Assembly (NCBI GenBank): GCA_013388855.1
Contig: JACAEM010000039.1
Location: 1 to 55,476, forward strand
DNA length: 55,476 nt
Reading direction: 5' to 3'
Source of the DNA: Chloroflexota bacterium
Lineage (GTDB): Bacteria; Chloroflexota; Anaerolineae; Anaerolineales; Villigracilaceae
In this document: positions 8,888-26,506 of the stretch, one piece after another
How the letters are laid out: each line of letters opens with the position of its first letter
Numbering within the stretch: the first letter of the stretch is position 1
Notes under the pieces: model-generated
What the model was told of the DNA's origin: nothing
Seen by the model: only the letters and a program-made list of their open reading frames with translations
Databases searched by the model: none
Program-made: the position numbers and the translations under genes

Positions 8888-9805
8888 TCAAGCCGAACCC
8901 AGCGCCAGCAAGATGTATAGCACCAGATCACCCCAGAGGTGCATGAACACGGGTATTCCCAGTCCTTTTGTTTCGACCATTGCCTTGCCGAAGAGGACGG
9001 CGAGCAGTGTGAGATAAATAACGCCTGCCGCTCCGAAGGAAACGCCGCCATAGTAATGCCCCAAGCCGAACCACAACGCCATCATCCAGACGGCTTGTCG
9101 TTTCCCGACAATCTGCCATAGTTGAGAAAGCGGCGCGGCGCGGTATGCCATCTCTTCGCCAAAGGCATTCATCATGGCAAGGATGAACACCATTGGAAGA
9201 ATGGGCAGGATATCGGCAATCGTTATTGACAGGGAGTTCATCGCCAGGATACCTGCTGTGAACAATGCCGTCAGAAGGAGCGCGATCAGCGGACCTGCTA
9301 CTTTCCACCGGAGACGCATTCCTTCCGCGGGCGCGTTGATATTTCCCAAGGTAAAAAAGAAATCGCCGCGTTTCTGCCCCATCAAGGCAAGAACGCCTGC
9401 AAGCGCCAATGCCGTCAGGACGATCCCCAATCTATCGCCGAAAGACAAGATGAGCCACGGTTTATCTGGACCGAACCAGGAGACCCAGACCGAAGTTCCC
9501 GTAAGCCAGGACATTCCAATCGTGACCACGTAGATCATGGTCATAATCAGGAAATACCCTCGCAACGGTCTCACGGCTGACCATACAAAGGTAAGCGCAA
9601 CAAGCGCTATACCTACGACGATCCACCACCACATGCTCCACTCGGAGAAGGGAGCTACGCCCAACTCGCTGAGAATGATCTGCGGTAAACGGCTGAGCAA
9701 CAGGGTGCCCAGCCAGGCAGTCAGAATCAACATCGCTCGTGAAGAAGTTGGTGCGTTGATCCTCCCCTGTTCTTTGACAAGACTTTCAGACGATAAATGG
9801 TTCAT
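8888..9805 (-). CDS. CPBP family intramembrane protease (1 of 6)
   Basis: 305 residues, eight or so hydrophobic helices. The CPBP (Abi/Rce1-like) motifs are present: GEEMAYR (EExxxR), FGLGH (FxxxH) and HLWGD (third His motif). The family includes eukaryotic Rce1 CaaX proteases and bacterial proteins linked to bacteriocin maturation or immunity; substrates are mostly unknown. The start at 9805 is chosen because AAGGAGAA precedes it; the longer in-frame version has no ribosome-binding site. Its start overlaps the 3' end of the preceding CPBP gene when that gene's frameshift is corrected, so the two are translationally coupled. Last gene of the minus-strand cluster. Confidence 0.88.
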   Translation of the reverse strand: MNHLSSESLVKEQGRINAPTSSRAMLILTAWLGTLLLSRLPQIILSELGVAPFSEWSMWWWIVVGIALVALTFVWSAVRPLRGYFLIMTMIYVVTIGMSWLTGTSVWVSWFGPDKPWLILSFGDRLGIVLTALALAGVLALMGQKRGDFFFTLGNINAPAEGMRLRWKVAGPLIALLLTALFTAGILAMNSLSITIADILPILPMVFILAMMNAFGEEMAYRAAPLSQLWQIVGKRQAVWMMALWFGLGHYYGGVSFGAAGVIYLTLLAVLFGKAMVETKGLGIPVFMHLWGDLVLYILLALGSA

Positions 9806-10587
9806 GAGATTCTCCTTTTGAGTGAGTAAACGGTTGAACGATGTCGCGGAGCAAATGCAATCCGTATGTTGCAAGCGGGAGCATGAAGAGGCTCAGCAAC
9901 AGCCATGAGGAGGGTGTCGCTTCCGTGCCGTTGCTCGCGAGGTTCAGATAACCCGCAACATTCAATGACCCATGGAAAAGAGCCGCAGGGTAAATACTTC
10001 CTCCCCGCAGTACCAGTCCGCCGAAAAAAAATACCCAGCAGGAATGCTGCGATGATTCGGAAAAGGACGATTTGTAATGGCTCGCCAGCCGGGTAGATGA
10101 CATGCATACCGCCGAAAAAGAGCGAGGAAACCAGGACGCTCCTGAGTACGCCGCGGTTTGTGCTGCCCCACGCGCGGATAAAACTGTGCATGATCAAACC
10201 TCGAAATGCAATTTCTTCCAATAATGCATGAGTCATCAGGAACAGGATTACGATGCTCGTGAATAATGGGTCGGAGGAGCTGAAATCGAGATTTCCCGTC
10301 ATCGCATAGGCTGACACAGCAATAGAGTAAGCGAGCGGAATGATGAGCATGAGCCATGTGCGCGGCTGTCCCAGCGACGTGAATCCTGCCGAATGCAACC
10401 AGCCCAGGCGCGAGAGAACGATGAGCAGAATAAATATCGAGACCAGCCTGCCGATTGTGCTGCCGATGTACCAGCCAGAGGTCTCTGCGGCGGATGCTCT
10501 ACCAACAAGAATGGATGACGCCAACACCAGCAGGATAAAAACAATGGTGATGAGAAAACCGAAAGCAAGCGGATGTTTCGTTGACAA
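9786..10587 (-). CDS. CPBP family intramembrane protease (2 of 6), frameshifted at a T8 tract
   Basis: The 5' part carries LLEEIAFRG and FFGGMH; after a run of eight T (8 A on the plus strand, 10024-10031) the reading frame loses homology. The other frame continues as GGLVLRGGSIYPAALFHGSLN, restoring the third motif (HGSLN), and ends at 9786. With seven T the protein is continuous (about 266 residues). Either a homopolymer sequencing error, a recent mutation, or a slippage-controlled gene. The uncorrected frame runs to 9802 with a non-CPBP tail. Follows an ABC permease gene by 12 bp on the minus strand. Confidence 0.75.
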
Positions 10588-10599
10588 GGATGAGTTCTC

Positions 10600-12159
10600 C
10601 TATTTCTGTATCTGCCTTGCCCTGCCAATAAAGGATGCGACAATCAGGGCAAGGGATAATGGCAGGAAGAAACCGATGTTCCCATCACTGTTCGCGCCAT
10701 AGAAATCCACTGCCTCCACTTTGTTGATCGCCAGATACCAAAGGGAGATGTACAACACTTCGAACAACTTCGAACTGTTGCTCCAAATGCCCAGCGCGAG
10801 GGCGAGGCTTGGGATGAACAGCGCGGCAGAAAACCACGCAAGCAGACCCTCACCATCGCCTGCGCTTGATAACTTGATAAAGGCTCCGCTTCCCGTCAAC
10901 ACGGTGACGATGAAACCCGCCAACCACGTCGCAGGGAGTTGCCGAGTCAGTGGCGCGGCGGCAGAGAAGACCATCTGTCCGACGTTATGCCGCATCTCGC
11001 GGCTTCCCATGCCTGACCAGACCAGGACAGGCAGGAGCCAGGTGATGGGGAGAATATAGGCGCGCACAGGTTCAGGTTTCATGAGCAAGGCGGCTAGAAT
11101 CAGTCCGCCTGTTATGGCGAACCACCACCACCGCAATCCCTTGAGCAGGAGTTTCAGTTCCAGAAAGAGGACGCGGGTGAAGGCAAGACTGTCAGGTCGC
11201 GCGGTCAGGGGAGTCAGATGAACGGAGGATAAGGATTGGGTTGCAGGAACAGATTGAGGCGTCGGATGGGAAACGTGGCGCTGCGCAGTCATCCGTATAG
11301 TTCTGACGCGTGAAGAGTCGAAACGGTCAAAGAAAATGGACGAGGTCAATGTCAACGCGAGCGCAACGCCGAAGAACATGAAGCGCGTCAGAAGGATATC
11401 GAGAGTCCAGTCCACGCCGAGCCACGTGAACACGCCTGTAATGGGCGTATCGGTCAAACCCAGGGCGAAGTTGCCGCCGTAATCGGGAAATATCGCTTTC
11501 GCCGCCGCTCCCATGCTTTGTTGAAGGAGCGTCAGACCGAGCGGGTCGAGGGCGGGATTGTTTTTACCCAATGTGATCGCCGCTGAAATGGTGGAGGCGA
11601 AGAGGATAAAGTAGATGATGTTTCCGAAGCCACCCTGCAGGAAGCCGATGCTTTCGAATAGAACCGCCAGCGCGGCGGTCAGTGCCAGCATAGGCAAAGC
11701 GATGAAGAGGAAGGGGGTCAGGAGCGCGAGGAAATCGAACTGCCTGCTTTCGCCAGCCAGCAGTTGAATCAAAAACGCGACAATGGCAAGGACAACGACC
11801 ATTGCAATGAACACGACAAAATTGCTCAGCCATTTACCAAGCATGTACAGCGGACGTGTGAGCGGCGTGGTCGCCATGATCTGACCGACGCCCGTCTCGC
11901 GGTCGCGCGCCACGGAGCCTTTGACGAGATAGAAACCGAACCAGCCAAGCATAAATGACGCAATGATCGCCAACATGCCCCCCACCCAGGCGGAGTTGAA
12001 TTCCCCGCGATAATCTCCGAGCTGGACAGTGAAATTGCCGATCCCCGCCTGATAACCGAGGAAGACCACCGCGCCCAGCATGACGAGGAAACTGTAGCGG
12101 CGCACGCGTTCGAGAAAATCGGCGCGGGCGATGTGATAGACGACACGCGCGGCGCTCAT
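10600..12159 (-). CDS. ABC-2 type transporter permease, large two-module form
   Basis: 519 residues with about twelve hydrophobic helices in two blocks, joined by a soluble linker near residues 235-285 (after ITVL-like helices, the text FDSSRVRTIRMTAQRHVSHP). The first block starts ARADFLERVRRYSFLVMLGAVVFLGY, typical of ABC-2 exporters. The start at 12159 overlaps the ATPase stop (ATGA), which overrides a longer upstream in-frame extension. Pairs with the ATPase at 12156. Substrate unknown; the CPBP neighbours suggest a peptide or lipid-like product. Confidence 0.85.
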   Translation of the reverse strand: MSAARVVYHIARADFLERVRRYSFLVMLGAVVFLGYQAGIGNFTVQLGDYRGEFNSAWVGGMLAIIASFMLGWFGFYLVKGSVARDRETGVGQIMATTPLTRPLYMLGKWLSNFVVFIAMVVVLAIVAFLIQLLAGESRQFDFLALLTPFLFIALPMLALTAALAVLFESIGFLQGGFGNIIYFILFASTISAAITLGKNNPALDPLGLTLLQQSMGAAAKAIFPDYGGNFALGLTDTPITGVFTWLGVDWTLDILLTRFMFFGVALALTLTSSIFFDRFDSSRVRTIRMTAQRHVSHPTPQSVPATQSLSSVHLTPLTARPDSLAFTRVLFLELKLLLKGLRWWWFAITGGLILAALLMKPEPVRAYILPITWLLPVLVWSGMGSREMRHNVGQMVFSAAAPLTRQLPATWLAGFIVTVLTGSGAFIKLSSAGDGEGLLAWFSAALFIPSLALALGIWSNSSKLFEVLYISLWYLAINKVEAVDFYGANSDGNIGFFLPLSLALIVASFIGRARQIQK

Positions 12160-13097
12160 GACTCGCCTCCGATAAAGTACAAATACGCATCTTCGAGATT
12201 CGGACTCACGCTTCCTGCCTGGACCTCGGGCTGACTTGCGCTGACCACACGCACCTGCACGCCGTCGCTCCTGCGGATCGTTCCGCTGACGATATATTTC
12301 TGCTTGAGCGCCACCAGTTCTTCGCTGGACACGCTCCACTCCCAAACCTTGCCTTCCACTTCCTTCAATAGACTTTCAGGCGCGGCGGTCCGCAGAAGAC
12401 GACCCTTGTTGACGAGCGCGATGTGTGTTGCGGTCGCCTCCACATCCGAGACGATGTGCGTGGATAGAATCACAATCCTTTCTCCTGATAAGTCTGACAG
12501 CAGATTCCGAAACCTGACCCTCTCTTCGGGGTCCAAGCCGACAGTCGGTTCATCAACGATGAGGAGTTGCGGGTCGTTCAACAAAGCCTGGGCGATGCCG
12601 ACGCGTTGTTTCATCCCGCCCGAATATCCGCCCAACGGACGTTTCGCCGCTTCGACCAGATTGACCACCTGAAGTAATTCGTCAATCCTTCTTTTCGCGG
12701 TTTTGGAATCCAAGCCTTTGATCGCCGCCATGTATTCAAGGAACTCCACCGCGGACAAATTCGGGTATACGCCGAAATCCTGCGGCAAATACCCCAGCAC
12801 CGCGCGGAGTTCGTCGGGAGATTTGGCGATGTCCGTGCTCTTCCATGTGACCGTGCCAGACGTGGCTTTAGTAATGGTCGCCAGGATGCGCATCAGCGTG
12901 GATTTGCCCGCGCCGTTAGGACCGAGTAAGCCGAGGATGCCAGGACCGAGTTCGAGCGTGAAATCGCGCAAGCCCCAGTTCCTGTTGTTGTATTGTTTGC
13001 TCACATTCTGGATGCTCATCACCATTGACTGGGTTGGCGCGGCGGCAGAAGTGAATATTGTTTTGGGTTGCGTAGTAGTTTGAGTAGTCATTATCAT
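12156..13097 (-). CDS. ABC transporter ATP-binding protein (exporter type)
   Basis: 313 residues. Walker A GPNGAGKST, Q-loop LPQDFG, signature YSGGMKQR, Walker B LLIVDEPTVGLDP and switch His in STHIVSD. A 30-residue unstructured N-terminal tail rich in Thr/Gln precedes the domain, and a 75-residue C-terminal extension after the switch follows. An in-frame ATG at 13091 is an equally plausible start. Overlaps its permease by four bases. Energises the exporter at 10600. Confidence 0.92.
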   Translation of the reverse strand: MIMTTQTTTQPKTIFTSAAAPTQSMVMSIQNVSKQYNNRNWGLRDFTLELGPGILGLLGPNGAGKSTLMRILATITKATSGTVTWKSTDIAKSPDELRAVLGYLPQDFGVYPNLSAVEFLEYMAAIKGLDSKTAKRRIDELLQVVNLVEAAKRPLGGYSGGMKQRVGIAQALLNDPQLLIVDEPTVGLDPEERVRFRNLLSDLSGERIVILSTHIVSDVEATATHIALVNKGRLLRTAAPESLLKEVEGKVWEWSVSSEELVALKQKYIVSGTIRRSDGVQVRVVSASQPEVQAGSVSPNLEDAYLYFIGGES

Positions 13098-13109
13098 CTC
13101 TCTATTCTG

Positions 13110-13916
13110 TTACTTGGTTCCCACCTGTCCAGCGCTCACCATTCCCTGTTTGTTCACAAGGTTGCGTTGCAGGTTCACGCCAAAGAGGAGGATCAAAACA
13201 AAAGCCGCCGCCAGGACTACAACCGCCTGTGCCCAAACCGCCTGTTCGATTGCAAGCCCGGCAAGCAGGAATTGGGGAGAATAATCGATCGCAAAATGGA
13301 ATAGGATTGCCATTGCGAGGCTGCCTTGTGTGTGAACAAACAGCCATGTCATCACCACGGATAGTCCAACTGGAACAAGAAAAGTCGGCATCCAGGGTCT
13401 GCCATCAACCAGACCGATACCGATATGCAGGATGCCCCACAGGATGCCTATGATCAGGGCGGAAGAGAGAGGCGAACGATGAACCAGCAGTCTCGGCAGG
13501 GCATAACCCCGCCAGCCCAGTTCCTCCAAAACGGCGACGAGCAGGATCAGGATGAAGTTGGTGATCAACTGTGAGGAGGCTGGAACACTGAACTGGACTT
13601 TGGGAGCCCATCCCAGGAAAAATGCCAATACATCAGCAAGCAGGATGATCCCGACAGACAATGCAAGGGCAACTACATACCACTTAAGACCAACCTGCCA
13701 TTGAAATACCTTCTTCAACAACATCGCCGCGCTTTTTACTCCCTCAGCGAGCGCGGTAAGCAGGATTGCCAGGGTTGAAGGGACCAAAAGCAACAACAAG
13801 GCGATCAAGACCGTGGGAAGTGGCAGGAAAAGCGCCATGGCTAGGCTGATGAGTGGAGTCAGGACCAGATAGATCGTCAAGGAATACTGTTCAATAAAAG
13901 TTGGCTTTGTGTTCAT
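13110..13916 (-). CDS. CPBP family intramembrane protease (3 of 6)
   Basis: 268 residues. Motifs: LEELGWRGYALPRL, ILWGILH and LFHFAIDY. The N-terminus MNTKPTFIEQYSL closely resembles that of CPBP 4 (MNTKSTFLEHYAL), so the two look like a tandem duplication that has since diverged. AAGGAGAAAACC precedes the start. Lies 12 bp upstream of the ABC ATPase, in the same transcription unit. Confidence 0.9.
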   Translation of the reverse strand: MNTKPTFIEQYSLTIYLVLTPLISLAMALFLPLPTVLIALLLLLVPSTLAILLTALAEGVKSAAMLLKKVFQWQVGLKWYVVALALSVGIILLADVLAFFLGWAPKVQFSVPASSQLITNFILILLVAVLEELGWRGYALPRLLVHRSPLSSALIIGILWGILHIGIGLVDGRPWMPTFLVPVGLSVVMTWLFVHTQGSLAMAILFHFAIDYSPQFLLAGLAIEQAVWAQAVVVLAAAFVLILLFGVNLQRNLVNKQGMVSAGQVGTK

Positions 13917-13957
13917 TGAGGTTTTCTCCTTCTAAAAAGTTGGTTTTCAGGGAATAC

Positions 13958-14992
13958 TTACTGTGCCACAATTGCTGATTTCTTTGCTGGTTCACGCTGC
14001 AAGTCTGGTCCATAGATTAAGATCAAAACAAGACTGACTACAACGGTTATCGCGGTCATTAACCACAGTTGCTGGGTTAAAGAAATTCCTCCATTGAGGA
14101 AGACAAAATAACTCTGCCCAAAATGAAACAGGATGGGGATTACAAGGTTGCCTCGCGTTTGGATATATAGCCAGGTCAGGACTACAGATAATCCGATGAT
14201 ATATAGGATGCTTGGAAGCCAATGCGAGCCTGCGTTCATCTGCCCGGGCAGAATCAAACCAAGATGTATCACTCCCCAGATGACTCCGATGAACAAAGCA
14301 GAATAGAGCGGCGAACGATTGGTCAATAGTTTGGGCAGAATAAAGCCGCGCCAGCTCAACTCCTCCGCTATGGCGCCGATGATGATGAAGACCCCGATAA
14401 TGATGTATTGCGGGAGAGACCAGGGCGTGAGTTGGATGGCGGGAATCCATCCGAGAAGCAGCGCCAGCGCGCTCATCGTCAAACGCAAGCCGAAAGCAAG
14501 TCCAAACACGATGGCATACCACTTGAAGCCAATCCGCCATTGGAATAGTTTTTTCAACAGCACACCCACACCTTTTCGTCCATCAGTCAGCGTGGTGAGG
14601 ACAATCGCTATAAGCGCGGGGACGAGGACCATCATCAACGGGACGATCTCAGGCGGAACATGCAGAAAAAGCGGAATGGCGAGGCTGATCAACGGGGTTA
14701 GAATGATGAATAGCGGCAATGCATAATGCTCGAGAAAAGTTGATTTAGTGTTCATGGTAATATCTCCTTCCATTCGATCTTCATCGGACAGGGTATTCAC
14801 TGAAACCAGCGTCAAACCCAGGCTGCTGATCCGTTTGAGAACGCCCTGCAGAGCAGCCTGGTCTGGAATGGAACCTGAGAGCAGGGCGTCGCCGCCTTCC
14901 AGGTTGGAGAGGGTCAACCCATCGAACATGTCTGCCAGGGTCACATCCAGATGTCCTCTGACCTTGATTTGATATTGTGTAGGTTTTTCCAT
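13958..14992 (-). CDS. CPBP family intramembrane protease (4 of 6) with fused or coupled N-terminal 80-residue domain
   Basis: 344 residues if read from 14992. Residues 1-79 form a small soluble domain (IKVRGHLDVTLADMFDGLTL, then LLSGSIPDQAALQGVLKRI, then LGLTLVSVN), a type seen elsewhere as a stand-alone protein of about 80 residues with unknown function. Residue 80 is the methionine of MNTKSTFLEHYAL, the normal start of the paralogous CPBP 3, and a strong GGAAGGAGAT lies just before that codon (ATG at 14755). So either a true fusion or two overlapping products are made. CPBP motifs: AEELSWRGFILPKL, VIWGVIH and FHFGQSY. Confidence 0.85.
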   Translation of the reverse strand: MEKPTQYQIKVRGHLDVTLADMFDGLTLSNLEGGDALLSGSIPDQAALQGVLKRISSLGLTLVSVNTLSDEDRMEGDITMNTKSTFLEHYALPLFIILTPLISLAIPLFLHVPPEIVPLMMVLVPALIAIVLTTLTDGRKGVGVLLKKLFQWRIGFKWYAIVFGLAFGLRLTMSALALLLGWIPAIQLTPWSLPQYIIIGVFIIIGAIAEELSWRGFILPKLLTNRSPLYSALFIGVIWGVIHLGLILPGQMNAGSHWLPSILYIIGLSVVLTWLYIQTRGNLVIPILFHFGQSYFVFLNGGISLTQQLWLMTAITVVVSLVLILIYGPDLQREPAKKSAIVAQ

Positions 14993-15053
14993 TCGTCACC
15001 GAGCTTTTTTTGAGTTATGCGGCAAGGTATCCTTTTTTCATTTGTTGCTCAAA

Positions 15054-15881
15054 TCAAAACTCTTCACGCCCGAAGCGCCAGAGCGCCAGGATGGTCATTA
15101 CAGCAATTTCGATTCCGGTTGCTATGATGGGCACGGGCCAAATGGACGGCAGAGATGCTCCCAGCGCCAATCCCCCCGCGACATCCGGCAGGGGCCAGGG
15201 GGTTGCGATCAATATCTGCATGGGCATAAATCCCTTCAACAGCAAACCAGCCATGAAGAAGCCGATCCCAATCCCGGCAATGGGACCGCGGCTGCTGAAG
15301 AACGTTCCCAGCATCAAAGTCAGCGTCAGATAGAAAAGCTGCCCCAAAATAACGAGCCCCACCCCGTATAAGAACGGGATCAGGGGAAGTGACGCAGGAA
15401 TCAACGCCCTCATCGTGATATAGAAAATCGTGGAAGGGATCAAGATGGCTGTGACAAAGAATCCAATGGCATACGCAAGCAGTTTTGCCAGGATGAACGC
15501 CGAGCGCGAAGCCGGTTTGGACATTGCCCAGGCTGCAGTCCCCAGTTGCTTCTCGCCCACGATCGCGCCCTGAGTCGTGATGACGGTTCCCATCCCTATG
15601 ATCCCAACGCTCATCGGCAGGAAGGTTTGAACGACCTCCTGCAACAAATCATTCGGTGTTATTGATTCAGTTAAAGCCACAATGGTGGAGATGCCGTTCA
15701 AGATCAATACCCAGATCAAAGTTTGCACCCACCAGGTTCGGGTCCCCCACCATTGTCCCAACTCCTTGCGCAGCATGTTGCCGAAGCCGCCCAGCCAGGC
15801 GCGCTCACGCACGGGGATCAATCCCTGCCGCGCGGCGAGAATGCGATCTTGATTGCCAACTGATTTCGATTGCGCGTTCAT
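15054..15881 (-). CDS. ABC-2 type transporter permease
   Basis: 275 residues, six hydrophobic helices, with the N-terminal amphipathic stretch (NMLRKELGQWWGTRTWWVQTLIWVLIL) typical of ABC-2 permeases. The start overlaps the ATPase stop at 15878 by four bases, so the pair is coupled. Forms the second exporter of the CPBP cluster. Substrate unknown. Confidence 0.88.
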   Translation of the reverse strand: MNAQSKSVGNQDRILAARQGLIPVRERAWLGGFGNMLRKELGQWWGTRTWWVQTLIWVLILNGISTIVALTESITPNDLLQEVVQTFLPMSVGIIGMGTVITTQGAIVGEKQLGTAAWAMSKPASRSAFILAKLLAYAIGFFVTAILIPSTIFYITMRALIPASLPLIPFLYGVGLVILGQLFYLTLTLMLGTFFSSRGPIAGIGIGFFMAGLLLKGFMPMQILIATPWPLPDVAGGLALGASLPSIWPVPIIATGIEIAVMTILALWRFGREEF

Positions 15882-16849
15882 TTCTTTGACTCCTCTCCAA
15901 CCATGCTCAGGAAGACTTCTTCCAGGTTGTGCGTCTTGCGACCGAAACTTTTCACGCTTACACTCCGATCTTCCAGGATAAGACGCAGCATCTGATCCTC
16001 TGCGGCATCCGCGTCGCTGACATTCACCTGCCAGTTGACCGCGCCATTATTGGACTTAGCGCTCAACGACCGGACCCAGGGCTGCCTGGCCACCCGAGCC
16101 TGCGCCCCGCTGACAGACCCTTTGATGGTCACGTTATAAACAACGGATGAGCCGCTTCCGTTCAACAGTTCCTGGATCGGCGCCTCCGCCACCAGCCCGC
16201 CGCGATTCAGAATGGCGACCCGATCACTGACGCGCTGCACATCATCAAGGATGTGGGTGGAGTAGAAGATGGTTGTGTGTTTGCGTAAAGTTTCCATCAC
16301 GGTCAACACATCGCGCCTGCCCTGCGGATCGAGCGACGCGGCGGGTTCATCCAGAATCAAAAGGTCTGGATAGTTGACCTGCGCTTGCGCGATACCCAGA
16401 CGCTGACGTTCACCGCCGGAAAAGCCTTTGATCGGGCGGTCGGCTTTGTCTTCCAGCCCGACAAGTTCGAGCATCTCCTCCACGCGCGCTTCGATCAAAT
16501 CTTTTGGACCTTGATAAAAGAAGCGCGCCGTATAACGCAGAGTCTGGCGGGCGGTCATGTGTTCATAGTAGCGCGGGTCCTGGGCGAGATAACCAACTTT
16601 TCTGCGGACTGCGAGACTCTCCTGTGTAATATCCTTCTCGAAGATCAGGGCTTTCCCCGCAGTTGGGCGAGTCAACCCCAGGAGCATCTTGATGGTCGTG
16701 CTCTTGCCCGCTCCGTTGGGACCCAGGAACCCGAAGATTGAATTCCTGGGGACTTGCAGGTTGAGACCCTGCAATGCGTTCACGCCTTTGTAGGTCTTGG
16801 TCAATTCCTGCGTGTGGATGACATTTCCATTGGATGTGTTCGTATCCAT
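15878..16849 (-). CDS. ABC transporter ATP-binding protein (exporter type)
   Basis: 323 residues. Walker A GPNGAGKST, Q-loop LAQDPRYYEHM, signature FSGGERQR, Walker B LLILDEPAASLDP and switch His in STHILDD. A C-terminal extension of about 90 residues follows, as in CcmA/YhaQ-like exporters. Partner permease at 15054. No Shine-Dalgarno stands out except AAGGA at a suitable distance. The 280-bp gap upstream suggests its own promoter. Confidence 0.92.
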   Translation of the reverse strand: MDTNTSNGNVIHTQELTKTYKGVNALQGLNLQVPRNSIFGFLGPNGAGKSTTIKMLLGLTRPTAGKALIFEKDITQESLAVRRKVGYLAQDPRYYEHMTARQTLRYTARFFYQGPKDLIEARVEEMLELVGLEDKADRPIKGFSGGERQRLGIAQAQVNYPDLLILDEPAASLDPQGRRDVLTVMETLRKHTTIFYSTHILDDVQRVSDRVAILNRGGLVAEAPIQELLNGSGSSVVYNVTIKGSVSGAQARVARQPWVRSLSAKSNNGAVNWQVNVSDADAAEDQMLRLILEDRSVSVKSFGRKTHNLEEVFLSMVGEESKK

Positions 16850-16911
16850 GATTAATCCTTCCTGGGCTTAATCGCTCATCTTACGCACTTTAAACCTTTA
16901 CACTCTCAGGC

Positions 16912-16983
16912 GTGTCACCCTGAGCGACAGCGAAGGGTCTCTACAATAATCTCAGAGATTCTTCGCTCCGCTCAGAATGACAT
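16912..16983. repeat. Imperfect palindromic intergenic repeat (REP/MITE-like)
   Basis: The left arm GTGTCACCCTGAGCG...AGCGAAGGGTCTCT and the right arm AGAGATTCTTCGCT...CGCTCAGAATGACA are imperfect inverted copies around a short AT-rich loop. The motif (C)TGAGCG-AGCGAAG is a very widespread type of dispersed palindrome in bacteria of several phyla. The rest of the 16850-17129 gap shows no gene. Confidence 0.7.
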
Positions 16984-17129
16984 TGCGTAAGGTGAGTTAA
17001 TCAGCCGCCGTTGGCTGATTTGCGGTTATGCTCATGGTGGCTTCCGGCTTGGGCTCCAACTCCCTGCGGGAGCGTCACTGAAAGTAAAGGTATTTTCTTT
17101 ACAAAGTACTAAACCTCTTTATCTATTGG

Positions 17130-17912
17130 TCATCCACCGAAATAGTGCTGCACGAAGCTTATGGTATCCAATACAGCATGCGCGAAGATCAGAGGCCACA
17201 GATTCCGTCGTATGGTCAAAAATGCCGCCCCAAATAGAAGACCCGCTACAATGATCCGAATTACGCCTCCCAGCCCCTGATACGTGTGACCCAGTCCGAA
17301 GATTATTGCGCTGCCAACCAAAGCAATCACCCAGGCGAGCTTCGTGTTCTTCCCTTGGAGATCAACGAGCCGGTTCATCAGGTAGCCGCGCCATAAGAGC
17401 TCCTCAAGGAATCCAGCCGTAAACCACGCAGCGACCACGTTGAGGATCAGATTAGGCAAATTGCCGCGCAAGAAATCAAAGCGACTGAGGTCCTGCTGTG
17501 CAACTGGGAAAACGAGTTGGATCAGCGAAATAAGCAATGGAAATGAAACGATGATGCCGACAGTTACGCCAATGCCCATCAAGATCGTACGTCCCCAGCC
17601 CTTTGGCCGCGCCAACCCGAAGTCGCTCCAGGTACTGCCTCGTAGTCTCGATACAACCCAAAAGATCGCTATCGTGAGTACCAGGCCCAGATTAACAAGT
17701 GGCCCCCCGGCAAGTACAAGTCCACCACCAAGTGGAAGGAAGTCGTCACCACCCAAGCGATTGCTTATTACCAAGAGTATATACAATGGAACAAACACAA
17801 CCGCGATTTCCAGCAGGATAGCGAGCTTGTTTGTTCGTAACAACTCACCAAATTTTTCCTGAAATGGTTTTGAGTCTTTCATTTTTGTTCGATCAGACAA
17901 GTTTGTGTTCAT
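17130..17912 (-). CDS. CPBP family intramembrane protease (5 of 6)
   Basis: 260 residues. Motifs: LEELLWRGYLMNRL, IIFGLGHTY and FAHAVLD. The start at 17912 follows AGAAGGAGAATCAA; the longer in-frame upstream extension has no ribosome-binding site and is rejected. A soluble N-terminal tail (MNTNLSDRTKMKDSKPFQEKF) precedes the first helix. Separated by 79 bp from CPBP 6. Confidence 0.9.
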   Translation of the reverse strand: MNTNLSDRTKMKDSKPFQEKFGELLRTNKLAILLEIAVVFVPLYILLVISNRLGGDDFLPLGGGLVLAGGPLVNLGLVLTIAIFWVVSRLRGSTWSDFGLARPKGWGRTILMGIGVTVGIIVSFPLLISLIQLVFPVAQQDLSRFDFLRGNLPNLILNVVAAWFTAGFLEELLWRGYLMNRLVDLQGKNTKLAWVIALVGSAIIFGLGHTYQGLGGVIRIIVAGLLFGAAFLTIRRNLWPLIFAHAVLDTISFVQHYFGG

Positions 17913-17991
17913 TTGATTCTCCTTCTGAAAGATTATTTGTTGTGCCCTTGAATGTGAGAAAACAAGGGCACAACCTTTGGAATATAGTCCC

Positions 17992-18813
17992 TTATCTCGC
18001 CATTGCCGGTTGCTCCGCAGCTCTCGCGTCCATCCCTGCTTCCGGCTTGCGGCCCAGTTCTTTGCCCGACAGGACAACTAACAGGATAGCCAGGATCACA
18101 AATACCACTGTCTGCATGACCATGTGGCTCTGCGCGTCGGCCCCTGTGAACAAGGGGTTAAAGATTCCGGTCATGAGATGGATGGAGGCGTGCAGCAACA
18201 TGGCCAGGAAGACGCTTCCATTCGTATGGTTGAACAACCAGGTATTCAGAACCGCCCCACAAATGACGATGATGGCAACCAGGGGTGGATCTGAGCCAAA
18301 GATGAACAGCGGGATATGCCAGATCGCATGAAGTACACCGAGGATCAAGGCAGCCGATAGAGCGGAGCGTCCCACCAGCAGGCGAGGCAGCGCAAAGCCG
18401 CGGAATCCTGGCTCCTCACCCAGAGCGATCAGCAAGAAGCCGGGAAACAGGAACTGAGCCAGGAGGTCAGGTCCAGCAGGGATCTGGAGACCGGTCGACA
18501 TCGAGGCGCCCGTGAGGATATTCAGACCAACAGCCGCCAGCCTGAGCACAGGCGGGAGGAACAATGCAACTGCGTACCATTGAAGCCCGACTCGCCAGCG
18601 CACCATGCGGCTGAAAAAGGTTTTCAACCCGCTTTTGCCATCGGCAATGGCTGTGATGAGAATCCCTGTCAGAAATGGAAATAAAAGAAAGAGGAACCAG
18701 ATGTCGGATGGATACTTCGAGCCCATGTACCAGGCAAAGAGCCATGTCCCCCAGTTGATCCCCCAGAAGACGCCCTGAGGGTAGCGTTTGATGAATGAAG
18801 TGATAGGGTCCAT
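17992..18813 (-). CDS. CPBP family intramembrane protease (6 of 6)
   Basis: 273 residues. Motifs: LGEEPGFRGFALPRL, LHAIWHIP and LLHASIH. Start at 18813 chosen for AAAGGAGAATTAC. First gene of the CPBP/ABC cluster on the minus strand; a perfect 9-bp dyad at 18841-18867 lies where its promoter should be. Confidence 0.9.
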   Translation of the reverse strand: MDPITSFIKRYPQGVFWGINWGTWLFAWYMGSKYPSDIWFLFLLFPFLTGILITAIADGKSGLKTFFSRMVRWRVGLQWYAVALFLPPVLRLAAVGLNILTGASMSTGLQIPAGPDLLAQFLFPGFLLIALGEEPGFRGFALPRLLVGRSALSAALILGVLHAIWHIPLFIFGSDPPLVAIIVICGAVLNTWLFNHTNGSVFLAMLLHASIHLMTGIFNPLFTGADAQSHMVMQTVVFVILAILLVVLSGKELGRKPEAGMDARAAEQPAMAR

Positions 18814-18840
18814 GTAATTCTCCTTTGTTAAATGAAAAAC

Positions 18841-18867
18841 AAACTGATACGAACACAATATCAGTTT
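18841..18867. promoter_or_regulatory. Perfect dyad upstream of the CPBP/ABC cluster
   Basis: AAACTGATA and TATCAGTTT are exact inverted copies separated by nine bases, 28 bp before the CPBP 6 start. Looks like an operator for a dimeric repressor; no cognate regulator lies next to it. Confidence 0.5.
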
Positions 18868-18973
18868 ATGTATGGAAAGTCGTCCACCGAAGGGTGGAAT
18901 CGGGGGGTGGAGTTTTGTATGGTGAGAAGAATCGATTAGGGCTAGCCCGGGGCCAACTCTCAGATGATGCGAA

Positions 18974-20359
18974 TCAGGACCACGGCATTTGTTTGGAAGC
19001 CGGCTTGGGGGCGATCTGGTTAAAAAACTGACGTGCGAAATACATCGACAGCAACAGGCCGATCACGGGAACCACACCAATAAGAAAGCGGAACGCAAGG
19101 TCAGGCTGCGGACCGGGTTGCTCACCACTGATAAAGCCAAAGAGACCGCTAACGGCGAACATTGCCGCACCCTGCAGCACCCCCGAGAGGTGGATTCCGA
19201 CACCCAGCAGGCTGAAATAGACAGCCTCACTGCGCTGTCCTGTAAGGTGAAAATGCCGATCTACCAGATCCGCGCGGATCACATCAAAACAAACCTGGCA
19301 TCCACCCCAGCCTATTCCGTAGATACCGGTAGCCAGGATCGCCGTCACCGACTCTGGAGCCAGCCCCAAACCCAGGCTGGCAATCACAATCACCCCCATG
19401 GACCTCAGGAAAACGGTCGCCGTGCCCCAGCGACGATACAGTCTCACCCACACCGGCACGCTCCCCAGTGCTGCCGTCAATGACACTGCGAAGATCAATA
19501 CGATCGTCCCCGACTCCGCACCCAGGGCATATTTGCTGTAGAAGGGGATGGCGAAGGGAAACAGGTTTACGGCGAATGCAAAGATCGCCAGAGTCAGCGC
19601 GTACAACCAGAAGGTACGCCCCTTTAGGATCTCCCGAAAGATCGGCCAAGGCCCAGGGATGGCCGGGTTTTGGTAACTGGAATCTTCCCGGTGCCGAAGC
19701 GTGGCAATGAACAACACGATGCCCGCCAGAGCGGCATACAGAAGAGCCATTTTCTGGAATCCCAGCTGCTCGTATACCAAAGGAGTCAAAGCCAGGCCGA
19801 CAAACACTCCGAGGATCAACCCTGCTCGGTTAAATGCGCCGGCACGAACTCGATCTGGTAATGTGCGGAACAGCTCTGGAAAGAGGACGTTGTAATTGAC
19901 GCCAGTAATCGTGAGAAAGGTTTCGTATAACAGGGTGACAGCTACCAGATACCAGAAAAGGATGTTTTGCCCTCTCATCGAACCCGGCACCAGGAATATC
20001 AACACAAAGGAAAGCGCCAGAAAGGGCACGCTAATCAGCAGCCACGGGCGACGACGTCCCCAGCGGGTGCGTGTGCTATCTGAAAGATAGCTAAAGAGCG
20101 GGTCGTTCAGGGCATCCCATATTGCGTAGATCGTCCGGGCCAGGGCAGCCAGCGCCAGCGTCAGGCCCAGGAAGTCTACATAGTAAAAATACGCGAAGGC
20201 GCCAAACGTTTCCCCCGCCACGGTCATCCCCAGCGTGCCCAAGCCAAAGAAGAATGGTGAGGACTTGTGACCTAGCGCCTCAAGCTCCTGCTGGTTGCCT
20301 TGAAGATCGGCAACCGGTACCTGAGAATCGTCAGTTTGGGTTGTTATAGAATTAGGTAT
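18974..20359 (-). CDS. GPH-family sugar:cation symporter (MFS), apparent ATA start
   Basis: 461 residues from 20359, twelve helices. The family hallmark IWDALNDPLFSYLSD followed by RTRWGRRRPWLL is clear; GPH transporters import glycosides, pentosides or hexuronides with H+ or Na+. The start is odd: a strong AGGAGG (20366-20371) is followed at the ideal distance by ATA in frame, giving (I/M)PNSITTQ, with no ATG, GTG or TTG close by. The upstream in-frame extension would run into the MalT-like gene. Either a rare ATA initiation or a G-to-A change. The MalT-like regulator at 20421 immediately upstream may control it. Confidence 0.85.
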   Translation of the reverse strand: MPNSITTQTDDSQVPVADLQGNQQELEALGHKSSPFFFGLGTLGMTVAGETFGAFAYFYYVDFLGLTLALAALARTIYAIWDALNDPLFSYLSDSTRTRWGRRRPWLLISVPFLALSFVLIFLVPGSMRGQNILFWYLVAVTLLYETFLTITGVNYNVLFPELFRTLPDRVRAGAFNRAGLILGVFVGLALTPLVYEQLGFQKMALLYAALAGIVLFIATLRHREDSSYQNPAIPGPWPIFREILKGRTFWLYALTLAIFAFAVNLFPFAIPFYSKYALGAESGTIVLIFAVSLTAALGSVPVWVRLYRRWGTATVFLRSMGVIVIASLGLGLAPESVTAILATGIYGIGWGGCQVCFDVIRADLVDRHFHLTGQRSEAVYFSLLGVGIHLSGVLQGAAMFAVSGLFGFISGEQPGPQPDLAFRFLIGVVPVIGLLLSMYFARQFFNQIAPKPASKQMPWS

Positions 20360-20420
20360 GGGAAACCTCCTATCTTGTGGGAAGTTGTCAACCAGGAAAC
20401 GATCAAATCGGGGTAGAGAA

Positions 20421-24775: not shown

Positions 24776-25084
24776 ATGAACATCCTTTATACGCAGGTCG
24801 AGAGAAAGTCACAATTATCTTCATACATACTGGTTGCCTTTGCCATCTGCATGGCAGTGATGCTGACCCTAAGCCTGGTCCGCCGCGTTGAGATTCACTG
24901 GTCGGTTCCTTCCGTATCCGCCCAGACGGCTCAAATCGAACACAGCAATATGCCTGTCGCCATCCCCGCGCCTCCGCCGCCCGCCGAAGCGACCAATGCC
25001 AGTTCCACACCCGAGCCGGTTGGGAATGCATCATTGCATCCAGTACCTCAGGTCATTCGTGCGCCGATGCCTTTTGTGCCATAA
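24776..25084 (+). CDS. Small single-pass membrane protein, Pro-rich tail
   Basis: 102 residues. A hydrophobic helix (residues 16-36, YILVAFAICMAVMLTLSLV) is followed by an Ala/Pro/Ser-rich extracytoplasmic tail containing IPAPPPPAEA. Start chosen at 24776 for TTGGAGGCAGCG. No family recognised. Lies 16 bp before the PDZ/S41-like lipoprotein, so presumably co-transcribed. Confidence 0.7.
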   Translation: MNILYTQVERKSQLSSYILVAFAICMAVMLTLSLVRRVEIHWSVPSVSAQTAQIEHSNMPVAIPAPPPPAEATNASSTPEPVGNASLHPVPQVIRAPMPFVP

Positions 25085-25100
25085 TAGAAAGGAAAACCAA

Positions 25101-26375
25101 ATGAAACTCCAACATTTATTCGTATTTTTTCTTACCCTTATCGTCTCTGCCTGTACCGCAATCGCTTCCCCGCCTGACCCCACGCCTATACCCCTTCCGC
25201 CCGCGCAACACGTGGAAAGCGCCTTCCAGTGGTTGGAAACCCATGCGATGATGAAAGATAACGTGGATTGGATCGCCCTGCGTGCCGAAACCGCCGACCT
25301 CGTCGCTGGCGCACAGACGACCGCCGATACATATCCTGCCATTTGCCAAGCCCTGAAGGAACTGAAGGATGGCAACGCCTGGTTGCTGGTTCCCAGTTTG
25401 GAAATCCCCAATTTCTACACTGGCTACCAGACTCTGTATCCGGAGAATCAGGTGGTCATTCGCATCGAGCCAGACAGTCCCGCAGAAAAAGCCGGGCTTC
25501 AGGTGGGCGACCGGATCGAACAGGTCAATGGGCAGCCCCCAGTTCCGTATGAAGAAGCGGATGCGTTTCCGCCCTGCAATGAGAAAGAGATGGACACCTC
25601 AACCGAGGAGCAACTCATCATCCAGCGGGATGGGCAATTACTGCAAATCAATGTTGCGAGGAACAAAATCACGGCTGGCAGGGATCCTTACAATCCTCCA
25701 GTGGGTCGGCGGCTGGGCGGGGATGAGCGCGGCGTTGGTTACATTGAATTGACATTAGAATCCGGCTCGCATTTGCAATACCCGACGGATGTCCAAAAGT
25801 TGATGCGGAACATGGATCGTACGCCCGTCTGCGGCTGGATGCTCGATCTGCGCCGTACTCCGGGCGGCGACGTCTGGTCGTACATTGCGGCGGTCGGTCC
25901 GGTTCTGGGTGAAGGCGACCTGGGCGGCTTCCAATACAGCGACGGGCGGCAGGAAGCGTGGACCTATCGCAACGGCGAGGTGTTCTGGAATAATGAATAC
26001 CGTTACGAGAGCGAGATTGACGGCTCGGTCTACAAGCCGAAACGGGTGACCCCTGTGGCGCTGCTGGTCAGCCCCGCAACACAGGCGGCTGGTGAATTGC
26101 TTTTGATTGCCTTTCAAGGACGCGCAGATATTCGTTCCTTTGGCGAGCCCACCCGCGGACTGCCGACTCTGATCACCCACACCGACCTGAGCGATGGCTC
26201 CAAGTTATTGGTGAGCGGCGCATTTTCCTTCGACCGCAACGGGACAGTTTACAATGGACCCATCCCACCGGATGTATTCGTGGAAACCGACTGGTCGAAA
26301 TTCGGAACAGAACAAGACCCGGTCATCCTTGCTGCAATGGATTGGCTGTATTCGCAATCCACGTGTCTGCCATAG
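25101..26375 (+). CDS. PDZ-S41-like lipoprotein, predicted inactive peptidase
   Basis: 424 residues. The signal peptide ends in a lipobox (TLIVSAC). A PDZ domain sits around residues 110-195 (VVIRIEPDSPAEKAGLQVGDRIEQVNGQP). The C-terminal half has the fold signature of tail-specific (S41) proteases: GVGYIELT, then GWMLDLRRTPGGDVW, VALLVSP and the segment ATQAAGELLLIAFQ. In active members the last motif reads SAGE or SASAE with the nucleophile serine; here the aligned position is Ala329 (GCG). The protein therefore probably binds rather than cuts C-terminal peptides. The true start is 25101 after AAAGGAAAACC; an in-frame start at 24888 would overlap the upstream gene and hide the signal peptide. 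Confidence 0.82.
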   Translation: MKLQHLFVFFLTLIVSACTAIASPPDPTPIPLPPAQHVESAFQWLETHAMMKDNVDWIALRAETADLVAGAQTTADTYPAICQALKELKDGNAWLLVPSLEIPNFYTGYQTLYPENQVVIRIEPDSPAEKAGLQVGDRIEQVNGQPPVPYEEADAFPPCNEKEMDTSTEEQLIIQRDGQLLQINVARNKITAGRDPYNPPVGRRLGGDERGVGYIELTLESGSHLQYPTDVQKLMRNMDRTPVCGWMLDLRRTPGGDVWSYIAAVGPVLGEGDLGGFQYSDGRQEAWTYRNGEVFWNNEYRYESEIDGSVYKPKRVTPVALLVSPATQAAGELLLIAFQGRADIRSFGEPTRGLPTLITHTDLSDGSKLLVSGAFSFDRNGTVYNGPIPPDVFVETDWSKFGTEQDPVILAAMDWLYSQSTCLP

Positions 26376-26506
26376 CATGGCATGATTATCAGTAGTTCAC
26401 GAGAACCTGATCTCGACGCAGTTGCACTGCGTCGAGGCAGGCGGCTGTACAATTGCCGCTAATCTTTCGCGAAGCGCTGATTATCTGAGTTTTGCCAAAG
26501 GAAAAC

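Follow-up and report, generated by a model that had tools for sequence, protein, structure and literature searches.

Organization of the locus

The analysed stretch of DNA, referred to as the window, comprises 55,476 nucleotides from an uncultured Anaerolineales bacterium (Chloroflexota). Ten genes follow one another on its minus strand between positions 8888 and 18813, where other frames are only short or overlapping. Reading frames and Pfam profiles confirm the first-pass annotation of these genes as six CPBP (Rce1-like, membrane-protease-like) genes and two exporter pairs on one strand; its addition that there is nothing else holds within 8888-18813, besides the small domain DOM80, but the unit also takes in the genes of an MFS transporter and of a large LuxR regulator of MalT type. 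The features of the extended unit are as follows.

20421..23129, minus strand: LuxR, MalT-type (LAL), 902 aa; TPR_MalT 204 bits, GerE 63 bits; first gene of the extended unit
18974..20551, minus strand: MFS_2 transporter; PF13347 181 bits; start codon uncertain
18835..18911, minus strand: leader of CPBP6, consisting of block, stem-loop and T-run, from a three-genome alignment
17992..18813, minus strand: CPBP6, PF02517 (45.0 bits); EEPGFR, LxxxH, HASIH
17939..17974, minus strand: hairpin between CPBP6 and CPBP5, from pairing in three copies
17130..17912, minus strand: CPBP5, PF02517 (69.4 bits); EELLWR, FGLGH, HAVLD
16955..16981, minus strand: dispersed repeat in the gap between CPBP5 and ATPA; 9 genomic places
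15878..16849, minus strand: ATPA, ABC exporter ATPase; ABC_tran 119.6 bits
15054..15881, minus strand: PERMA, ABC-2 permease; ABC2_membrane_2 37.3 bits
14756..14992, minus strand: DOM80, 79-residue domain in frame with CPBP4; no family name
13958..14755, minus strand: CPBP4, PF02517 (57.7 bits); EELSWR, WxxxH, HFGQS; own ribosome-binding site and ATG
13110..13916, minus strand: CPBP3, PF02517 (56.8 bits); EELGWR, WxxxH, HFAID; in the clade of CPBP4
12156..13097, minus strand: ATPB, ABC exporter ATPase; ABC_tran 111.2 bits
10600..12159, minus strand: PERMB, single-chain double-length ABC-2 exporter, 519 aa; ABC2_membrane_3 37.6 bits
9786..10587, minus strand: CPBP2, PF02517 (40.2 bits), interrupted; frame change at the T8 tract 10024-10031
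8888..9805, minus strand: CPBP1, PF02517 (43.4 bits); EEMAYR, FxxxH, HLWGD

The spacing among the ten genes is uneven, and the 280-bp gap from CPBP5 to ATPA contains a repeat that occurs at 9 places in its own genome (at most 3 mismatches, self included; reversed control 0). All six CPBPs exceed the Pfam cut-off for PF02517 (22.4 bits). The whole genome (4.03 Mb) holds 11 PF02517 matches, six of them at the cluster, so that the CPBPs are clustered far above random placement; the earlier impression of a striking cluster of strongly diverged CPBPs is upheld.

Recurrence in relatives and CPBP phylogeny

The cassette was found again, rearranged, in genome G048 of the same genus (locus L031) and in the metagenome-assembled genome bin116 (locus L093). 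The conservation of gene order, proposed earlier as a check, is thus partial: order and membership vary among the three copies, but the gene set is kept in both relatives. The cassette is sporadic, being present in 2/152 family genomes by PERMA at 80% identity or higher; PERMA is 85% identical to that of G048, and the remaining matches among the 152 genomes reach at most 43%. The LuxR gene of the window also heads the G048 copy, in which the MFS orthologue occupies the same place. The bin116 copy is preceded by a LuxR end, with no MFS gene between this end and CPBP6. CPBP1 and CPBP6 have orthologues in both loci; CPBP5 is 84% identical to its G048 orthologue and absent from the bin116 copy. 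In total, the relatives' clusters hold orthologues of 5/5 (G048) and 4/5 (bin116) CPBP clades.

Both related copies carry a toast-rack gene between PERMA and DOM80 (PF17115, 67.8 bits in L031; the L093 protein matches the one of L031 with 244 bits in phmmer). It is absent from the window cluster, and one PF17115 match lies elsewhere in that genome. The bin116 copy has a PF00144 hydrolase gene that the window cluster lacks; beyond the window, PF00144 was seen in the bin116 copy and at other CPBP loci only. Within the loci examined, many of them chosen for their CPBP clustering, a CPBP gene lies at most three genes from 10 of the 20 PF00144-like ORFs (8 distinct places).

For the trees, 105 CPBP ORFs (at least 50 bits, 180-450 aa) were reduced to 84 by removal of shared ends and joined by two weak CPBPs of the genome itself (86 in total). 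The careful tree holds the 49 sequences left once named long branches (these two included) had been dropped and the set thinned by locus. A single clade for the six CPBPs was rejected (AU test, p ~1e-7), and with it lineage-specific duplication of all six; only CPBP3 and CPBP4 belong to one clade, with an ambiguous branching order between these two and their counterparts in the relatives. As read from these trees, the six CPBPs are five old clades, separate lineages held together. Since orthologues of each clade stand in the relatives' clusters, the six are explained neither by a burst within one lineage nor by accidental proximity. The first-pass annotation had named beforehand, as evidence to the contrary, an unkept order together with unrelated clades assembled by chance: the clades are indeed different, but chance neighbourhood is ruled out by the orthologous clusters in L031 and L093. 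Its suggestion of an expanding family agrees with the CPBP number per genome in the genus (2 to 20, n=18 genomes), but not in the sense of a lineage-specific burst of six.

Regarding divergence, dN was 0.08-0.62 versus a dS of 0.35-2.70 where finite (CPBP2c rows excluded). The pS values against G048 were 0.28 for CPBP5, 0.47 for ATPA and 0.68 for PERMB, with 0.61 for one background gene, by its look SHMT; for two other genes of the window genome, by their look carB and purB, neither G048 nor G436 has a close counterpart. With a single gene as background, horizontal transfer is no more than suggested.

CPBP motifs

The motif EExxxR is kept in all six CPBPs, as had been claimed. The second motif, earlier given as FxxxH throughout, has this form in CPBP1, CPBP2 and CPBP5 and reads WxxxH in CPBP3 and CPBP4 and LxxxH in CPBP6, the histidine being present in all. 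The third CPBP motif is H-x3-N/D. Its wider form H-x3-N/D/S/H, ascribed before to all six, is found in five, ending in D in CPBP1, CPBP3 and CPBP5, in S in CPBP4 and in H in CPBP6; in CPBP2 (10587-9802) the third motif FHGSLN is out of frame and the conserved C-terminal third lies in ORF 10103-9786. This downstream frame can still be aligned to intact orthologues (78 columns with a score of 182, 66 columns with 170), so that the frame change is either recent damage, a site of slippage or a fault of the assembly. The two frames of CPBP2 were compared apart, and the trees take its first 187 residues only. With CPBP2 broken as assembled and CPBP4 and CPBP6 deviating from N/D at the last motif position, not every one of the six need be a protease.

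No CPBP reached the curated cut-off of the NCBIfam CPBP equivalogs (MmRce1, MroQ, Mrt families, SdpC, ABC_perm_CPBP). The best score was 43.6 bits against a cut-off of 425 (MmRce1), the sorting-CPBP models MrtJ, MrtC, MrtP and MroQ scored far under their cut-offs, and CPBP3 matched the SdpC model NF052643 weakly (21.9 bits, cut-off 300). The sole solved structure matched by CPBP6 by sequence was Rce1 (4cad, E 1.2e-5); its comparison with plasmids (60 records, every one below 60% identity) was uninformative. Bacterial CPBP function is presented as largely unsettled in passages of PMC9298176 and PMC6914704.

Exporters

ATPA/PERMA and ATPB/PERMB each pair an ABC ATPase with an ABC-2 permease by Pfam profiles. 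DrrA is the top NCBIfam model for both ATPases and both remain under its cut-off (ATPA 236.7 bits, cut-off 312.45). As the closest solved relatives of ATPB by sequence are ABCA phospholipid transporters, a lipid substrate is also conceivable. The ATPB/PERMB pair mostly occurs without CPBPs (none at 60/80 named loci, several of which are contig ends). Among the matches listed, the one that ranked first for the predicted PERMB model (pLDDT 81.2) in Foldseek against the PDB was a mycobacterial efflux pump (8k1n, TM only 0.37, E 2.0e-4); in VIA-align this pump matched over the whole length (404 aligned, rmsd 9.0, Z 14.0) but stood in row 20, beneath NosY and ABCG matches of half length. PERMB and the pump (PDB 8k1m-8k1p) are alike as single-chain double-length ABC-2 permeases that match structurally over their whole length, but sequence identity over the structural alignments is 12-14% and the TM-score is low.

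DOM80 and its LuxR neighbourhood

The frame of DOM80 continues stop-free into CPBP4, in line with the fusion of an 80-residue domain described at first; CPBP4 nevertheless starts at an ATG of its own (14755) behind a Shine-Dalgarno-like sequence (AAGGAGATATTACC-ATG), and DOM80 is more often a separate small protein, standing alone in L031 and L093. It has no family in Pfam or NCBIfam and no PDB match by sequence. The predicted fold is beta-alpha-beta-beta-alpha-beta, ferredoxin-like (pLDDT 79.5). Among the matches listed, Foldseek gave ferredoxin-like neighbours, none at E 0.001, and all VIA matches had Z of at most 8.2 and 4-20% identity; given these weak matches, no function is read from the fold.

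A MalT-type LuxR gene lies within about 1.5 kb of DOM80 at 25/29 loci versus 2/55 controls. Plasmids of Cyanobacteriota, Deinococcota and Actinomycetota also carry DOM80 close to LuxR genes.

LuxR-DOM80 operons elsewhere contain quinone oxidoreductase, DUF4386 and MMPL genes, so that LuxR alone does not imply peptide stress. DOM80 is an unnamed family that, in Chloroflexota, has a strong link to the large LuxR regulators, and offers a handle on the possible control of this large regulator class.

Conserved non-coding elements

Two conserved non-coding elements, the leader of CPBP6 and the CPBP6-CPBP5 hairpin, accompany the cassette. The leader begins with the block TCCACCC/TTCGGTGGA at 18873-18911, followed by a stem-loop (18867-18841) and a T-run (18839-18835) 21 nt ahead of the CPBP6 start codon. 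Its exact 18-mer occurs only at this site in the window, L031 and L093 (L213 and L214 are the same places). With up to 3 mismatches the block was found in 6/18 genus genomes, and with 0-1 mismatch at this cluster only. The block is thus not supported as a genome-wide operator with a regulon; the five further sites, in four other genomes, have 3 mismatches. Regarding the leader stem, 27/27 cells were paired across three sequences and 3/9 pairs were changed on both sides; the covariation score, from three sequences only, was reached by 26/500 shuffles, and the fold had z = -3.04. The hairpin is kept in L031 and in L093 stands before the PF00144 gene; 31/36 cells were paired against 30.6-50.0% in slid versions, with covariation no greater than in shuffles. 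Counts of a promoter/terminator scan were within 1 sd of shuffles, and its list did not include the leader stem-loop.

The earlier statement that no precursor gene is visible is borne out for the 19 small ORFs beside the genes (at least 15 residues, at least half outside genes), none of which was conserved as a precursor by tblastn against L031 and L093. Strong tblastn matches (18825-19028 with the ORFs within; 17896-17973) were set aside as conserved non-coding DNA before CPBP6 and CPBP5.

Interpretation

The locus is best explained, tentatively, as a putative inducible cassette for envelope stress, peptide detoxification and efflux. It looks like a predicted switchable kit for surviving membrane-active toxins, probably peptides or lipopeptides. 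The MalT-type LuxR would sense a signal and turn the unit on, possibly with DOM80 as its regulatory partner, and the stem-loop ahead of CPBP6 may act as an attenuator or leaky terminator. The CPBPs, whose motif surroundings differ, would cut or shield against different membrane-embedded peptides, and the two ABC exporters and the MFS carrier would expel the compound or its pieces. Protection against membrane-active peptides is close to the self-immunity proposed in the first-pass annotation, which remains the best of its three ideas.

This reading draws on the recurrence of the gene set, which G048 has with the same LuxR and bin116 behind a LuxR end, and on the excess of dS over dN. Further points in its favour are the toast-rack gene of both relatives, the PF00144 hydrolase in bin116 and the CPBPs near PF00144-like ORFs, the analogy to MlrA and to CPBP bacteriocin immunity, the PERMB match to the mycobacterial pump, DrrA as top model of the ATPases, the leader stem-loop with its T-run and compensatory changes, and LuxR near DOM80. 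Several observations argue against it: the window cluster is without toast rack and PF00144 gene, CPBP2 is broken, the third motifs of CPBP4 and CPBP6 deviate and non-catalytic CPBPs are known, ATPB/PERMB mostly occurs without CPBPs and ATPB is nearest to ABCA phospholipid transporters, LuxR-DOM80 operons carry other genes, the covariation is from three sequences, and the PERMB TM-score is 0.37.

It is unlikely that the CPBPs are non-proteolytic modulators, i.e., scaffolds or sensors tuning exporters, kinases or envelope enzymes like Abx1 and SpdC. The degenerate motifs of CPBP4 and CPBP6, the lesion of CPBP2, the weak SdpC match of CPBP3 and the non-catalytic CPBPs cited in a passage of PMC9298176 would suit such a role; drift would, however, be expected to erase the motifs, and EExxxR is retained in all six, with the second- and third-motif histidines in frame in five. 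It is likewise improbable that accessory genes under LuxR control have gathered loosely around no one shared substrate, the CPBPs being separate envelope-protein proteases within a single regulated island. Order and membership differ among the three copies, other islands hold CPBPs mixed with many gene types, and uneven synonymous divergence along the cluster is expected if pieces are exchanged separately, but all three genomes keep both exporters and the leader elements with the same five CPBP clades, of which bin116 holds four.

Peptide maturation and export, as first proposed, found nothing positive in its favour. A self-made peptide, its leader or tail trimmed by CPBPs, exported by the ABC-2 pairs and with a precursor encoded elsewhere, is quite unlikely. 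CPBPs are described as common in bacteriocin gene clusters (in a passage of PMC9298176), the CPBPs of the related locus L113 are interspersed with GNAT acetyltransferases and an FMN reductase, and the bin116 copy, unlike the window, encodes a 90-residue protein with no Pfam match between PERMB and CPBP1. Against this, the 19 small ORFs include no conserved precursor, the window cluster has neither a peptidase-containing exporter nor a modifying enzyme (Pfam, NCBIfam), the sorting-CPBP models score far under cut-off, and one peptide needs fewer than five different CPBP clades. An anti-phage or abortive-infection island is very improbable, for although CPBPs are frequently annotated as "abortive infection protein" (a remark in PMC6914704), occurrence is sporadic and the bin116 copy is bordered by a serine recombinase, a group II intron protein and a DUF6094/helicase protein, none of the eight non-ATPase proteins (six CPBPs, two permeases) matched PADLOC at E 0.01, and the matches of the ATPases to mad3 (100.9 and 98.7 bits) and other ATPase models are, in our judgement, what many ABC ATPases would give.

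The detoxification and efflux cassette could, more doubtfully, represent an undescribed inducible resistance class of Chloroflexota, in which LuxR and the ferredoxin-fold DOM80 would control non-orthologous glutamate intramembrane proteases, each tuned to a different membrane-active peptide and the whole battery coupled to drug-type ABC exporters. If so, detoxification would be achieved by a panel of intramembrane proteases and not by one dedicated enzyme. Related genomes keep a regulator, two exporters and two conserved control elements together with CPBPs of five old clades, and the question of why there are so many CPBPs becomes testable in a single segment, about 14 kb long, that can be cloned. 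No title or abstract among those listed described such a cluster or DOM80.

Comparison with known systems

The closest analogues appear to be toast-rack/ABC stress operons, CPBP bacteriocin immunity and the mlr microcystin-degradation cluster. The LiaF/LiaG-type toast-rack operons, read as membrane-linked systems in parts of PMC11237479, resemble both related copies in combining a toast rack with an ABC ATPase and permease; the window cluster differs in having no toast rack and a MalT-type LuxR in place of GntR/RHH or LiaRS, and CPBP has 0 occurrences in the main text of that paper. A large ATP-binding-type LuxR also heads the secondary-metabolite clusters with LAL/MalT regulators of PMC3282765; the present cluster, unlike these, has DOM80, exporters and CPBPs and no biosynthetic core in its ten genes. 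Passages of PMC9298176 report CPBPs as bacteriocin immunity factors, processors or receptors and SilX as dispensable for immunity. At bacteriocin loci (SilX, SagE, PncP and kin) CPBP genes lie near transport genes, as in the cassette, but number one or two instead of six, and the cluster is without bacteriocin precursor, peptidase-exporter and two-component system.

In the account of the mlr cluster in PMC6914704, MlrA belongs to the CPBP family, MlrB is a serine protease with a beta-lactamase-type active site and MlrD a putative transporter. Unlike mlrABCD, the cassette has LuxR, a pair of ABC exporter systems and several CPBPs, which fall into different clades; no MlrC counterpart was noticed in it, and its window copy is without PF00144. 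At family level the window shares with mlrABCD a CPBP and a carrier (MFS), to which bin116 adds the PF00144 hydrolase, and by analogy a CPBP protease would detoxify a peptide here too.

Gene content and organization

The cassette is transcribed in the order listed here, and two further genes lie upstream of it on the same strand.

18813 to 8888, minus strand: CPBP6, CPBP5, ATPA, PERMA, CPBP4, CPBP3, ATPB, PERMB, CPBP2, CPBP1
Upstream of CPBP6, same strand: MFS_2 transporter
Upstream of CPBP6, same strand: LuxR-type regulator, 902 residues, with a MalT-type TPR region and a GerE domain

The six CPBP proteins and two exporter pairs recognized in the first-pass annotation were both confirmed: all six CPBPs passed the PF02517 cut-off, and ATPA/PERMA and ATPB/PERMB each consist of an ABC ATPase and an ABC-2 permease. 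The window genome (4.03 Mb in 46 contigs) contains 11 PF02517 matches, six of them in the cassette. The genes from ATPA to CPBP1 lie close together, with no gap exceeding 61 bp, and 280 bp with a dispersed repeat lie between CPBP6-CPBP5 and ATPA. Labels of CPBPs and other genes within loci were assigned with a profile derived from the CPBPs of the cluster itself and with phmmer, part of them being checked with Pfam; the compared genomes are mostly draft assemblies. Elsewhere in the window, the interval 24888-28825 encodes a peptidase S41/PDZ protein and, after it, a histidine kinase with a PDZ domain of its own, an apparently unusual pairing.

Regarding the CPBP motifs, FxxxH had been ascribed to all six proteins, which does not apply to CPBP3 and CPBP4 (WxxxH) or CPBP6 (LxxxH); the third motif ends in S in CPBP4 and in H in CPBP6. 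Six intact third motifs had likewise been reported, and here CPBP2 is the exception: its reading frame switches at eight consecutive T (10024-10031), after which the conserved end, FHGSLN included, lies in a different frame. Because this end still aligns to the intact CPBP2 of relatives (66 and 78 columns), the interruption would be a young lesion, slippage or an assembly error. The tract itself could be a site of slippage or phase variation, or be misassembled; the window has three further A/T runs with a length of 8 or more.

Conservation in relatives and CPBP phylogeny

Conservation of the cassette is sporadic. The search for its gene order in relatives, as the first-pass annotation had proposed, recovered the set with partly different membership and order in a same-genus genome (G048, a single contig; locus L031) and in the metagenome-assembled genome bin116 (locus L093).

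G048: LuxR-MFS-CPBP6-CPBP5-ATPA-PERMA-toast rack-DOM80-CPBP2-CPBP1-CPBP3/4-ATPB-PERMB
bin116: LuxR end-CPBP6-PF00144 hydrolase-alpha/beta hydrolase-ATPA-PERMA-toast rack-DOM80-unknown (253 aa)-CPBP2-CPBP3/4-ATPB-PERMB-unknown (90 aa)-CPBP1

Genes for a serine recombinase, a group II intron protein and a DUF6094/helicase protein directly follow the bin116 copy (L093:13080-19874) and possibly represent a mobile element. Among 152 family genomes, identities of at least 80% to PERMA and CPBP5 were found in the window genome and G048 only, the remaining matches reaching at most 43% and 41%, respectively.

A quick tree of 86 rows and a careful tree of 49 CPBP sequences, thinned from 86, were computed. 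In the latter, every window CPBP groups with its counterpart from L031 and/or L093 (bootstrap 98-100), CPBP3 and CPBP4 share one clade, and a single clade of all six window CPBPs is ruled out (p-AU 1.07e-07), so that the six do not form the lineage-specific set of duplicates that had been considered. The pairing with relatives together with the rejected single clade indicates, on phylogenetic grounds, that five old CPBP lineages travel together in the cassette. Synonymous divergence (pS) against G048 was 0.28 for CPBP5, 0.47 for ATPA, 0.51 for PERMA, 0.77 for DOM80 and 0.65-0.68 for the remaining measured cassette genes; relative to a background of 0.61, taken from one reference gene, this unevenness suggests piecewise exchange.

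The number of CPBPs per genome in the genus ranges from 2 to 20 (18 genomes, fragmented ones included). Contig C34 of the window genome (L186:3-5755) carries genes which by look are carB- and purB-like, and close counterparts of these were not found in G048 or in another compared genome, G436.

Exporter ATPB/PERMB and other CPBP-rich regions

PERMB matches occur in 29 of 120 family genomes, and its relatives (80 named loci) reach Acidobacteria, Paenibacillus and Haloterrigena. In the flanks of these 80 loci, where several contigs end close to the gene, at least one CPBP was present in 20, at least two in 11 and at least four in 4; the exporter therefore generally occurs without CPBPs and collects them in part of the Anaerolineae. 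DOM80 and a large LuxR were each found in 14 of the 80.

A search of the PERMB sequence against the PDB yielded no match. The best Foldseek match of its predicted model (pLDDT 81.2) was a mycobacterial efflux pump (E 2.0e-4, TM 0.37). VIA-align placed NosY at the top, for the first half (Z 17.6, rmsd 3.1, 220 aligned), and the mycobacterial pump, over the whole length, in row 20 (Z 14.0, rmsd 9.0, 404 aligned). Since the best solved relatives of ATPB by sequence are ABCA phospholipid transporters, the substrate may be lipid-like.

Regarding other regions rich in CPBPs, about 112 kb of G048 (G048:C1:184000-296000; loci L031, L032, L175-L177) hold 11 of the 19 listed CPBP matches (20 in the genome). 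DOM80, two ATPB/PERMB pairs and a number of large LuxR genes lie in the same stretch, which gives it the look of a hotspot for such operons. Loci L113, L114, L115 and L119 represent a second, different type of cluster, in which ATPB/PERMB is accompanied by three to five CPBPs; GNAT acetyltransferases are interleaved in L113 (by Pfam) and in L114 and L119 (by look only), L113 also encodes an FMN reductase, and both L113 and L119 encode a protein of roughly 460 aa that has no Pfam match. PF00144 serine hydrolases of 661-673 aa adjoin tandem CPBPs in L120, L173, L175, L180 and L182. A large LuxR gene lies immediately upstream of these genes in L120 and L173; in L175 it is two genes farther away on that side.

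DOM80 and the LuxR-type regulator

DOM80, a 79-residue unnamed domain upstream of CPBP4, was recorded at the following places.

14756-14992, minus strand: DOM80 of the window
L063-L092: DOM80 of other loci
L186:7350-7994: DOM80 of a further locus

The domain had been described as fused to CPBP4, with which it is indeed in frame, but it is more often a separate protein: 10 of 65 distinct domains extend in frame at least 80 residues into the following gene. In all ten, a Shine-Dalgarno-like sequence and an ATG are retained close to the start of that gene, so CPBP4 is probably also produced alone. A scan of 17 members assigned DOM80 to no Pfam or NCBIfam family (matches of single members had E 0.024 or worse), and no PDB match by sequence was found. 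The predicted model is ferredoxin-like, and ACT and Lrp-type ligand domains are among its structural neighbours (Z at most 8.2), a likeness which may reflect only a common arrangement.

DOM80 is present in 59 of 301 genomes of the phylum. A large LuxR gene of MalT type lies within about 1.5 kb of it in 25 of 29 phylum-wide loci picked by DOM80 alone (the window's own excluded), vs 2 of 55 control loci excluding the own and G048 copies (PERMA-chosen 0/18, CPBP5-chosen 0/10, PERMB-chosen 2/27); in 18 of these 29 loci it is the nearest upstream gene on the same strand. DOM80 also matched eight plasmid records. Among the five inspected, a LuxR-type gene lies at most 5 kb upstream in those of Acaryochloris, Streptomyces, Chlorohelix and Deinococcus, directly adjoining DOM80 only in the last two; none was found within that distance upstream on the Microbacterium plasmid.

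Conserved non-coding elements

A block of TCCACCC repeats and TTCGGTGGA (18873-18911) precedes CPBP6 in all three genomes. Its 18-mer core occurs exactly in 4 of 239 loci, which amount to just two places, L031 and L093, both outside the window, and at 0-1 mismatch only in this cluster among 18 genus genomes. Five sites with three mismatches to the block, in four other genomes (loci L242-L246), could be further operators; three are mutually identical, as are the other two.

G058:C97:40014
G078:C336:5749
G084:C20:19121
G084:C96:3723
G073:C2:725887

Downstream of the block come a stem-loop and a T-run, which complete the leader (18835-18911) at 21 nt (window) or about 60 nt (L093) from the CPBP6 start codon. 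All 27 pair cells of the stem hold, and three pairs are altered on both sides in L093, although this covariation comes from three sequences and its score was reached by 26 of 500 shuffles. Because the window leaves hardly any promoter room between T-run and start codon, transcription probably runs through the stem-loop into CPBP6, and the structure would serve attenuation or leaky termination. Another hairpin lies before CPBP5, and in bin116 before the PF00144 gene. In this hairpin 31 of 36 cells pair, more than in slid versions, but its covariation in the three genomes was not above shuffles.

Proposed function and comparison with known systems

CPBPs have been assigned to immunity to bacteriocins, their processing or a receptor role, some acting without catalysis, and SilX is reported as not needed for immunity (PMC9298176). 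MlrA, a member of the CPBP family, opens microcystin, and a serine protease and a putative transporter are encoded along with it (PMC6914704); toast-rack proteins with ABC transporters have been interpreted as modules for membrane-linked sensing and transport (PMC11237479). In the examined loci, many of which had been chosen because CPBPs cluster there, a CPBP lies at most three genes from 10 of 20 PF00144-like ORFs (8 distinct places). On the basis of this literature and this proximity, the cassette might be an inducible unit for detoxification and efflux, a reading held with slightly less than even confidence. The cassette is classed apart from the mlr, bacteriocin and Lia systems, each of which has a defining feature that the cassette lacks or may lack.
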